Source: Cyanobacteria bacterium M_surface_10_m2_119
GTDB lineage: Bacteria > Cyanobacteriota > Cyanobacteriia > PCC-6307 > Cyanobiaceae
DNA length: 51,522 nucleotides
Direction of reading: 5' to 3'
Assembly (NCBI GenBank): GCA_016882525.1
Contig: VGPU01000011.1
Span: 1-51,522, forward strand
Shown here: piece after piece, positions 18,927 through 21,729 of the stretch
How positions within the stretch are numbered: the first letter of the stretch is position 1
Layout of the letters: every line of letters begins with the position of its first letter
Translations under genes and position numbers: made by a program
Notes under the pieces: generated by a model
Database searches by the model: none
Told to the model about the DNA's origin: nothing
Seen by the model: the letters and a program-made list of their open reading frames with translations, nothing else

Positions 18927-19403
18927 ATGACCACTGAAGAAACCGTAGAGGCAACCGCAGCGGAGACACCCGTGGCCGAGGCAGCTGAGGCTCAGGACGC
19001 TGCGGCCGTAGCCGCCCCTGCGACGTCGGCGCCCACCACCGGCAAGCTCTGTGCTGCCGACCTGATTCGGGCATTTGAGGCTGAACAGCTCAAGAGCGAT
19101 CTTCCGGAGATCTATGTGGGCGACACCGTCAAGGTGGGCGTTCGCATCCGTGAAGGCAACAAGGAGCGGGTGCAGCCCTACGAGGGCGTGGTGATCGCCA
19201 AGCGCCACGGCGGCCTGAACGAGACCATCACCGTTCGCCGGATTTTCCAGGGTGTCGGCGTGGAGCGGGTCTTCATGCTGCACAGCCCTCAGGTTGCTTC
19301 CGTGAAGGTGGAGCGACGCGGTAAGGTGCGTCGAGCGAAGCTTTTCTATCTGCGCGATCGGGTGGGTAAAGCCACTCGCGTCAAGCAGCGCTTCGACCGC
19401 TGA
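18927..19403 (+). CDS. rplS: 50S ribosomal protein L19
   Basis: 158 residues from ATG 18927. The conserved L19 domain starts at about residue 38: [80 protein letters not shown], and the basic end [20 protein letters not shown]. It sits at the interface of the ribosomal subunits. A 37-residue acidic Ala/Glu/Thr-rich extension precedes the domain; bacterial L19 is normally about 115-125 residues. Just after the stop, GGAT-ATTCCC and GGGAAT-ATCC (19404-19428) can form a hairpin without a T run. Confidence 0.96.
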
Positions 19404-19459
19404 GGATCATTCCCACCGGGAATCCATCCTCACCACCTCCAATCGGGGACATCGGCCCT

Positions 19460-19532
19460 GCGCCGTTAGTTCAGTTGGTAGAACGCAGGTCTCCAAAACC
19501 TGATGTCGGGGGTTCAAGTCCTCCACGGCGCG
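19460..19532 (+). tRNA. trnW: tRNA-Trp (anticodon CCA)
   Basis: A complete cloverleaf can be drawn: acceptor GCGCCGT with ACGGCGC, D arm GTTC..GAAC, anticodon stem CAGGT with ACCTG around loop CTCCAAA (anticodon CCA), and T arm with GGTTCAAGTCC. The discriminator base is G, as expected for Trp. The 3' CCA is not encoded. Confidence 0.96.
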
Positions 19533-19639
19533 TTCGATGTCCCCACCAACCAGTGGCTCACCAGTTGTATGCCGGTGATTTTCACGTCAGTTGAAAGGCC
19601 ATTGGTTTTTGTCTGCCCCGCAGTTTCCTTTTCCCAAAC

Positions 19640-19828
19640 ATGGAGTTGGATCTTCAGCCCGGAGATGTGGTCAAGGTGCTCGAATCAGCAGCCCTCGGCT
19701 GGGTTCGTGCCCGGGTGATTCGGGTCAAATCAGGTGGCCGCGTGGTTGTTCAGAGCGATCAGGGCCGTGAATTCACAGCCCGTGGCAACCAGGTTCGCCT
19801 GATCGAGCCTGCCGGGTTCCGTCCCTGA
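19640..19828 (+). CDS. Hyperconserved 62-residue protein of picocyanobacteria (Hcp)
   Basis: A 62-residue basic protein starting MELDLQPGDVVKVLESAALG and containing RVVVQSDQGREFTARGNQVR near the end. Length and sequence match my memory of the hyperconserved protein reported in Prochlorococcus and marine Synechococcus, whose amino acid sequence is nearly invariant between species. The predicted fold is a small beta-barrel (alternating hydrophobic residues, Gly turns), SH3- or KOW-like, which would suit RNA or ribosome binding. Context supports a translation role: it is flanked by tRNA-Trp and tRNA-Asp, with rplS and gltX beyond. Function is unknown. Start ATG 19640; terminator after it. Confidence 0.85.
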   Translation: MELDLQPGDVVKVLESAALGWVRARVIRVKSGGRVVVQSDQGREFTARGNQVRLIEPAGFRP

Positions 19829-19895
19829 CGTTCGATCCCCCTTTCGGAAGAGCAGAACGCAGGCTTGCGGCCTGCCTTGGCTGCCGATTCTTGAG

Positions 19896-19921
19896 GCTCA
19901 CCCCAATGGGTGGGCTTTTTT
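19896..19921 (+). terminator. Rho-independent terminator after hcp
   Basis: GCTCACCC and GGGTGGGC pair around a CAAT loop (8 pairs with one T-G wobble), followed by six Ts. It lies 67 bases after the hcp stop. The rest of 19829-20131 shows no gene or other clear element. Confidence 0.88.
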
Positions 19922-20131
19922 GATGGGCGCTGCCCCCCGTGAGCCATGGGGAGACCCGCGTCGGAGGGCGGCAGTTGACGAAGGGGGGGGCCAGCACGGA
20001 TACTTTCTTGGTCGCGCTCGCGACAAATGGCTGCCGCCCGAGGGCAGGAGCCAAGAATTCAAAGCTCTGCAGGTTTGCCGTCTCCGACTGGCAATCTTCA
20101 CCAGTTGTTTTGAATCATCAGGCACAAGCCT

Positions 20132-20205
20132 GGGACTGTAGTTCAATCGGTTAGAGCACCGCCCTGTCACGGCGGAAGTTGCGGGTTCGAGCCCCGTCAG
20201 TCCCG
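20132..20205 (+). tRNA. trnD: tRNA-Asp (anticodon GTC)
   Basis: The cloverleaf is complete: acceptor GGGACTG with CAGTCCC, D arm GTTC..GAGC, anticodon stem CCGCC with GGCGG around loop CTGTCAC (anticodon GTC), T arm GCGGG-TTCGAGC-CCCGT, discriminator G. The 3' CCA is not encoded. It ends 24 bases before the gltX start, so the two may share a transcript. Confidence 0.96.
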
Positions 20206-20229
20206 TTTTCAACTTCAGGAGATCCTGCA

Positions 20230-21729
20230 GTGGTTGCTGAGGTCAGTGGCGCACGTCCAGTTCGTGTGCGCCTGGCCCCCAGCCCGACGGGGACACTCCA
20301 CATCGGCACCGCCCGCACGGCGGTGTTCAACTGGCTGTTCGCCCGGCACAACAACGGCCAATTCCTGCTGCGCGTCGAAGACACCGACAAGGAGCGCAGC
20401 AAGCCCGAATACACCGCCAACATTCTCGAAGGGCTCCAGTGGCTCGGTCTGGAATGGGACGGCGTCCCCGTGATCCAGAGCGAGCGGGTGGCCCTGCACC
20501 GCGCGGCCATCCAGCAACTGCTCGATTCCGGCCACGCCTACCGCTGCTATGCCAGCGAGGCCGAGCTCACCGCCATGCGCGAGCAGCAGGCCGCCAGCAA
20601 ACGAGCTCCGCGCTACGACAACCGCCACCGCGACCTCAGCCCCGATCGGGAGCAGGCATTCATCGCCGAGGGCCGCGAAGCGGTGATCCGCTTCCGCATC
20701 GACGACGGCCGCACCATCACCTGGACCGACCTGGTGCGCGGCACGATGCGCTGGAGCGGCGGCGATCTGGGCGGCGACATGGTGATCGCGCGACGCGCCC
20801 CGGCCGATCAGATCGGCGATCCCCTCTACAACCTGGTGGTCGTGGTCGACGACGCGGCCATGGCGATCAGCCACGTGATCCGCGGTGAAGACCACATCGC
20901 CAACACCGCCAAGCAGCTGTTGCTCTACGAGGCCCTCGGCGCCGAACCGCCGGTCTTCGCCCATACGCCGCTCATCCTCAACAAGGACGGCAAGAAACTC
21001 TCCAAGCGCGACGGCGTCACGTCGATCAGCGACTTCCGGGCGATGGGCTACACAGCCCCGGCCCTGGCCAACTACATGACCCTGCTGGGCTGGTCGCCCC
21101 CGGAGGGCATGGGCGAGCGTTTTTCCCTGGATGAGGCGGCCGCCGTCTTCGGGTTTGAGCGGGTGAACAAGGCCGGTGCCCGCTTCGACTGGGACAAGCT
21201 CAACTGGCTCAATGGCCAGGTGCTGCGCGAGCAGGGGGCCGAGAGCCTGCGCGAGCAGCTGCTGCCCCTGTGGGCCGCGCAGGGCTGGGCGGTGACCGCC
21301 CAGCCGGCCGGGACAACCGTGAGCAATCCGGTGCATGCCGATCCGGCCTGGCAGCTGGAGCTGATCGCGCTGCTGGCCCCCTCGCTCACCCTGCTGGCTG
21401 AAGGCGTGGAGCAGGCCACCCCCTTCTTCACCACACCGGCCCTCAATGAGGCGGCCCAGACCCAGCTGGCGGCCGAGGGCGCCAGGCCTGCCCTGGCGGC
21501 CCTGGCGGCGGCCCTGGAGGCCCGCGATCCGGACACTCCCCTCGATGGCGATCAGGCCCAGGCCCTGTTGGGAGAGGTCGCCAGCGGTGCCGGCGTGAAG
21601 AAGGGCGTGATCATGAAGAGCCTGCGCGCCGCCCTGCTGGGCAGCCTGCAGGGCCCGGACCTACTCAGCACCTGGCTGCTGCTGATGCGCAGCGGCGAGG
21701 CTCTGCCGCGCATCCAGGCCTGCCTCTGA
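20230..21729 (+). CDS. gltX: Glutamyl-tRNA synthetase
   Basis: 499 residues from GTG 20230, with AGGAG about 10 bases upstream deciding the start. A class I synthetase: the HIGH motif is in [20 protein letters not shown], and the KMSKS equivalent is [10 protein letters not shown]. Other GluRS features are [17 protein letters not shown] and [20 protein letters not shown]. It charges tRNA-Glu for translation and, in cyanobacteria, for tetrapyrrole (chlorophyll) synthesis, and charges tRNA-Gln with Glu for later amidation. Its 3' end overlaps the convergent antiporter gene by 69 bases. Confidence 0.97.

Follow-up and report, generated by a model that had tools for sequence, protein, structure and literature searches.

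PSHCP in a cyanobacterial genome: a near-invariant Tudor/SH3-like barrel at a fixed locus, and a putative tRNA-binding translation accessory

The window, which is the whole 51,522-nucleotide stretch of DNA analyzed here, contains a 62-residue reading frame between two tRNA genes, and this locus raises the questions of what the small protein is, what has kept it so constant, and what it does. The features of the locus are as follows.

18927-19403, plus strand: rplS, ribosomal protein L19 (Pfam PF01245 Ribosomal_L19, E 8.1e-47; start codon read from the sequence)
19459-19533, plus strand: tRNA-Trp (cca), predicted by ARAGORN; Rfam RF00005 at 19460-19532, 68.9 bits
19534-19639, plus strand: hcp leader, 106 nt from tRNA-Trp to hcp, containing an imperfect hairpin; the leader's 3' end is a GCAGTTTCC stretch resembling many short leaders
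19640-19828, plus strand: hcp, ATG start, coding for PSHCP (62 aa, Tudor/SH3-like barrel)
19640-19666, plus strand: hcp start region, codons 1-9, with strong synonymous constraint at codons 3-9
19893-19921, plus strand: probable intrinsic terminator of hcp, a GC-rich hairpin followed by T6, read from the sequence
20131-20206, plus strand: tRNA-Asp (gtc), predicted by ARAGORN; Rfam RF00005 at 20132-20205, 67.2 bits
20230-21729, plus strand: gltX, glutamyl-tRNA synthetase (Pfam PF00749 tRNA-synt_1c, E 3.1e-91 on 20194-21726), with an inferred GTG start chosen by eye

The reading frame at 19640-19828 is PSHCP, a previously described protein. A phmmer search against the PDB finds residues 1-56 identical to 6nnb_A (E 2.4e-31), whose PDB name is 'Prochlorococcus/Synechococcus Hyper Conserved Protein', and at E <= 0.001 the window's own genome has a single match to the protein. 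The initial annotation, which had recognized the 62-residue product as this hyperconserved protein and had placed it among rplS, tRNA-Trp, tRNA-Asp, and gltX, was right on both counts, with ARAGORN, Rfam, and Pfam agreeing on the setting. The probable terminator hairpin folds at -17.1 kcal/mol (z -3.64), and a consensus scan reported no terminator-like site.

The identification is correct and is not new. Whidden et al. 2014 (PMC4215834) had already described PSHCP and its length, together with an identical order of flanking genes, and reported hcp from freshwater Synechococcus, Cyanobium, and the Paulinella chromatophore, with a nucleotide composition that tracks that of the host genome; a 2016 photosystem II review (PMC4823308) also mentions the protein. 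The photosynthetic cells that carry PSHCP are very abundant, and the identification of the protein here amounts to one more genome. What is added concerns mostly the gene and its possible origin, namely outgroup loci that lack hcp, the ancestral position of nusG, the constraint on codons 3-9, and the 106-nt leader of the window; the side results, which are those outgroup loci, a list of natural substitutions, and a testable idea of origin, leave the identity of PSHCP unchanged.

Within the sampled cyanobacteria, PSHCP is confined to the Prochlorococcus/Synechococcus/Cyanobium family. At E <= 0.001 it matches 58 of 386 genomes of the phylum, all 58 in the window's family and 56 of them at 100% identity over residues 1-62, and a search of 400 genomes of that family finds it in 363, including 247 of the 251 with completeness of ≥90% and contamination of ≤5%. 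The remaining 37 family genomes gave no match, and two of the four well-complete ones among them (by the same thresholds), G511 and G521, were followed up. Nothing in G511 matches any part of window positions 19250-20400; in G521, one contig stops just past rplS and another starts near tRNA-Asp (L125 and L126), and the absence of hcp is probably an assembly break. True loss was rejected for both genomes, which look like cases of assembly gaps. At the start of the second G521 contig, next to tRNA-Asp, the rplS end appears in reverse complement.

Beyond the phylum, the best 80 of 415 relatives comprise 79 whose titles are cyanobacterial and one recorded as a Bifidobacterium breve metagenome-assembled genome (MAG); the contig concerned (CALPNT020000095.1) carries a perfect hcp and is probably mislabelled or from a mixed bin. 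Phage-borne copies were sought and rejected, a tblastn search of 50,697 phage records giving three weak partial mycobacteriophage matches (E 7 to 8), and none of 34 pattern-matching stretches in IMG/VR encodes a relative. A profile search of 68 genomes of the class for distant homologues has its best out-of-family match at E 0.004, and ten outgroup places from its list were inspected and set aside: two are antisense to another frame (L235 and L239; that frame is presumably hydrolase-like), two have stop codons inside the matched stretch (L234 and L236), two, in the pair of outgroup genomes that have the locus but lack hcp, run antisense to frames 271 and 277 aa long (L237 and L252), one lies within an unrelated 308-aa frame (L238), and three showed nothing convincing (L245, L246, and L247).

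It is the protein, not the DNA, that is kept. Among 129 full-length loci, a set enriched for variants because variant genomes were fetched deliberately, 98 are identical over residues 1-62 and 112 over residues 4-60, and those 112 represent 110 distinct DNA sequences. Relative to the window's genes, median pS values are similar for hcp (0.70, n=128), rplS (0.65, n=125), and gltX (0.71, n=122), whereas median pN values are 0.008, 0.074, and 0.209, respectively; the hcp value of 0.008 includes six-fold codon paths of Ser, Arg, and Leu scored as non-synonymous, as well as the variant loci. Synonymous sites are near saturation, and selection therefore acts on the PSHCP protein. As a yardstick, ribosomal proteins L14, L16, L5, S8, S17, L24, and L29 are 39 to 89% identical between the window's genome and the AT-rich family member G107, in which PSHCP matches the window at 62 of 62 residues. 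The statement of the initial annotation that the sequence is kept despite differing base composition holds for loci ranging in GC from 0.33 to 0.70. Its claim of hyperconservation stands as near-invariance (363/400 genomes, pN 0.008) but not as absolute invariance; one genus of ten genomes, g147, has V10L, L19M, and a start at Met3.

The variants come from 34 of the 363 matching family genomes, which were chosen by eye because their E-values fell short of what a full-length perfect match would give at their genome size, and which were searched again. At 98% identity, twelve align over residues 1-62, nine over 1-61, and one (G422, L081) from residue 3; the ten g147 genomes (L085-L091 and L117-L119) align at 93 to 95%, and the remaining two are truncated by contig ends. 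In one of the twelve (G443, L071), the translation gives an unchanged PSHCP, and ambiguous bases perhaps explain the mismatch. Both g147 and G422 code for a 60-residue protein beginning at Met3. Residues 4-60 are altered in 17 of the 34, and the resulting list of natural substitutions is a useful by-product: V10L together with L19M in ten genomes, V13A in two, and K12R, R25S, R43S, L54M, and I55N in one each, to which the two ends add E2D, L3S, changes at positions 61-62, and a QK extension.

Of 121 family loci, 113 have the complete order rplS, tRNA-Trp, hcp, tRNA-Asp, gltX, and with that many complete loci the order is not a matter of chance. The 121 are a non-random set composed of the top-ranked loci of the phylum and family searches, further places from the phylum search, and the re-searched variant genomes. 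Six of the eight incomplete loci are truncated by contig ends, and in two (L081 and L116) tRNA-Asp and gltX were not detected in the ∼1.5 kb downstream of hcp. The distance from hcp to tRNA-Asp varies from 112 to 1179 nt across the family loci. Outside the family, tRNA-Trp adjoins rplS in 27 of 30 outgroup genomes scanned, and in two of the 30 (G036 and G739, of 2.7-2.8 Mb) rplS is followed by tRNA-Trp and tRNA-Asp with no hcp, the two tRNA genes being separated by a 204-nt spacer; the spacer contains no frame comparable to hcp, and these loci are the site without the gene. The outgroup loci of this 204-nt form (L163 and L164) have, by eye, a terminator-like hairpin 3' of tRNA-Trp.

The hcp leader is also of fairly fixed length, with a gap of 33 to 38 nt from tRNA-Trp to hcp in 104 of 120 family loci, among which the window's 106 nt is the longest. 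Leaders in the window's genus (eleven genomes, with L110 and L287-L295 among the loci) range from ∼36 to 113 nt, three being of the short form, and among the loci examined only this genus has leaders longer than 60 nt. The window's leader folds at -26.7 kcal/mol with a z of -1.71, and the hairpins of the long leaders are not strongly supported because six of them in this genus reach a z of only -0.2 to -1.7. A conserved leader RNA structure was rejected, RNAalifold giving -0.2 kcal/mol for 93 distinct short leaders plus 30 nt. By eye, the window's leader has no Shine-Dalgarno sequence and neither have most hcp leaders, with L071 a possible exception; many share a T-rich stretch, often TGCAGTTTC, a motif missing in the AT-richest group.

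Constraint on the DNA itself is evident at the start of the gene. Codons 3-9 of hcp have a mean excess codon identity of 0.31 over the codon-usage expectation, compared with maxima of 0.09 for gltX (61 windows) and 0.26 for rplS (83 windows); Leu5, for example, is CTT in 99 of 121 sequences. Because the sequences are related, no formal significance attaches to the excess. Folding is weaker in the start region (-30 to +33) than at positions +61 to +123 inside hcp in all 119 of 119 loci. The simplest reading is an ordinary one, selection for an open translation start, although in the one short leader that was folded singly, together with six coding bases, the start codon is paired (z -1.81). Upstream of tRNA-Trp, the end of rplS (window positions 19371-19400, codons 102-111 of the compared part) has a synonymous excess of ∼0.25, possibly reflecting a promoter or other signal.

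A single-sequence AlphaFold model of PSHCP has a mean pLDDT of 85.7 and five strands (residues 10-15, 20-29, 34-39, 44-48, and 52-56). The top Foldseek match to the model is 6nnb (E 1.2e-6), a structure titled as a Tudor domain, and those that come next, from E 0.004 upward, include Tudor domains, a designed barrel, an Spt5 KOW, and the SH3-like domain of myosin. In Pfam, the protein matches SH3_1 best, at an E of 1.2e-4 just under the cut-off of that family. Pfam KOW (PF00467) at E <= 1 has two matches in the window's genome (contigs C8 and C32) and none at hcp on C11, and it is missing from the Pfam scan of the protein as well. The KOW/SH3 fold named in the initial annotation is broadly right: the fold is an SH3-like barrel, but Pfam KOW is unmatched and 6nnb is titled Tudor. 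PSHCP seems to belong to the broad group of SH3/KOW/Tudor barrels, within which no parent family stands out.

What such a protein does is best approached from published work together with the fold, and on that basis PSHCP is probably an RNA-binding translation accessory, most likely a tRNA binder, a reading in which we place reasonable though not high confidence. PSHCP would be a free-standing, abundant, non-catalytic Tudor/SH3-like barrel whose basic surface may contact tRNA and possibly rRNA; tRNA handling would be the function under selection, and many simultaneous contacts would leave almost no residue free to change. From the present analysis, this reading draws on the identity, the fold assignment, the near-invariance, the restriction to one family, and the fixed locus. 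In the study by Bauer and colleagues, PSHCP reportedly binds DNA weakly and tRNA more strongly, with a basic patch around Lys-30. The title of that study (Bauer et al. 2019, cited in PMC7585439) states an RNA-binding function. Earlier work contributes expression, abundance, and pull-downs: under N and P limitation, hcp transcripts change together with those of translation genes, PSHCP is present at 8-26 fmol per µg protein, and L2, PsaD, and a Ycf48-like protein were each pulled down in three strains (PMC4215834). The gene neighborhood is weak evidence for the role because in two of three strains the bulk of hcp transcripts is attributed to a promoter predicted inside the tRNA-Trp gene, and transcripts covering all of rpl19 and hcp are <2% (PMC4215834).

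The same pull-downs feed two other readings. The 2014 hypothesis is that PSHCP is a lineage-specific ribosomal protein located near L2 and stabilizing 23S rRNA; it draws on the recovery of L2 in all three strains and on non-compensatory 23S changes near helices 75-76 (PMC4215834), and the protein is small, basic, and adjoins rplS. However, 8-26 fmol per µg seems sub-stoichiometric relative to ∼120 fmol of ribosomes per µg, assuming that ribosomes make up ∼10% of protein mass, and an abundance probably below that of ribosomes leans against a fixed subunit; we regard this reading as rather unlikely. Recovery of PsaD and the Ycf48-like protein in all three strains is not explained by tRNA binding and counts against the favored reading, raising the alternative that PSHCP couples translation with photosystem assembly. 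The unique peptides are few, however: in each strain PsaD yielded one to four and the Ycf48-like protein one (PMC4215834), and the genes beside hcp contain no pointer to photosynthesis; such a coupling is very improbable.

A further possibility concerns both role and origin, and is one on which the main text of Whidden et al. 2014 (PMC4215834) does not touch, the words NusG, KOW, MutS2, and Tudor being absent from it. PSHCP could be an adaptor of the ribosome or of RNA polymerase, one that derives from, or acts like, the NusG (or MutS2) KOW domain and docks on uS10, to which the KOW domains of both MutS2 and NusG bind (PMC10897456). PSHCP was compared by profile with nine cyanobacterial families, with 40 shuffles each in local mode, and the local excess over shuffles is greatest for NusG-KOW (z 5.35), followed by L24 (3.77), MutS2-KOW (3.55), S17 (3.41), L19 (2.79), and L14 (2.38), with S8, L5, and L29 at noise; in global mode, NusG-KOW is 29% identical over 55 columns. 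The global z values, however, are topped by S17 (5.70), which is not a KOW protein and which also exceeds its shuffles locally, ahead of NusG (4.80), L24 (4.28), MutS2 (3.33), L14 (2.08), and L19 (1.29). The HHalign probability for PSHCP and NusG is 17.6%, against 88% for the true KOW pair L24 and NusG (10-12% for PSHCP and L24, and 6.5% for the control MutS2 and NusG), the position of NusG Phe165 is, by eye, non-hydrophobic in PSHCP, and Pfam KOW is unmatched at hcp in the window's genome. MutS2-KOW has a higher HHalign probability, 38.9%, yet its profile alignment is out of register, and it was dropped as a parent for that reason; its KOW region (G000:C55, L204) is the best non-self match to PSHCP in the window's own genome (E 0.043, not significant), the runner-up in G522, and the sole match in G511. 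Replacement of MutS2 or NusG by PSHCP was rejected, both being present in all family genomes searched (6/6 and 4/4, respectively). Taken as a whole, we hold the adaptor reading to be highly unlikely.

The place now taken by hcp nevertheless invites a guess as to origin. Of 41 other cyanobacteria, 26 carry nusG on the rplS strand, 453 to 981 nt downstream of that gene, with secE presumably between tRNA-Trp and nusG; in the other 15, nusG is elsewhere on the rplS contig (10 genomes) or on a different contig (5 genomes). PSHCP might conceivably descend from a detached NusG KOW at the ancestral nusG place, in the block rplS, tRNA-Trp, nusG, that was left behind or returned when the block moved away in the picocyanobacterial lineage and that would still dock on the translation machinery. 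This is a long shot, made attractive by the ancestral position, and its sequence support is weak; the putative tRNA-binding accessory remains the preferred reading of the present-day protein.

Among known systems, the eukaryotic Tudor domains of TDRD3, PHF1, PHF20, and SMN share the barrel, with VIA-align Z scores of ∼8 to 9.5 over 50-60 residues, but are only 12 to 26% identical to PSHCP in the VIA rows; these four read methylated residues. The KOW domains of NusG/Spt5, L24, and MutS2 share the SH3-like barrel and, by eye, a GD-x-V-x-V first strand. Archaeal Spt5 KOW domains (Z 8.1-8.4, 22-32% identity) supply the top identities (32% and 29%) among the 50 VIA rows, PSHCP itself apart, which counts for the NusG-like reading, and the MutS2 KOW of a collided disome reaches Z 8.2; bacterial NusG is not among the 50 rows shown, an absence that excludes nothing. 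The VIA ranks cannot separate these families because 6nnb itself reaches Z 8.1. In contrast to the KOW domains, PSHCP is free-standing at 62 aa, is unmatched by Pfam KOW, and matches their profiles weakly. Closest of all is PSHCP as already described (PDB 6nnb; Whidden et al. 2014), with which the window's protein shares residues 1-56, its length, and the five-gene neighborhood; no difference is seen in the protein, and the window's locus is set apart by its longer leader.
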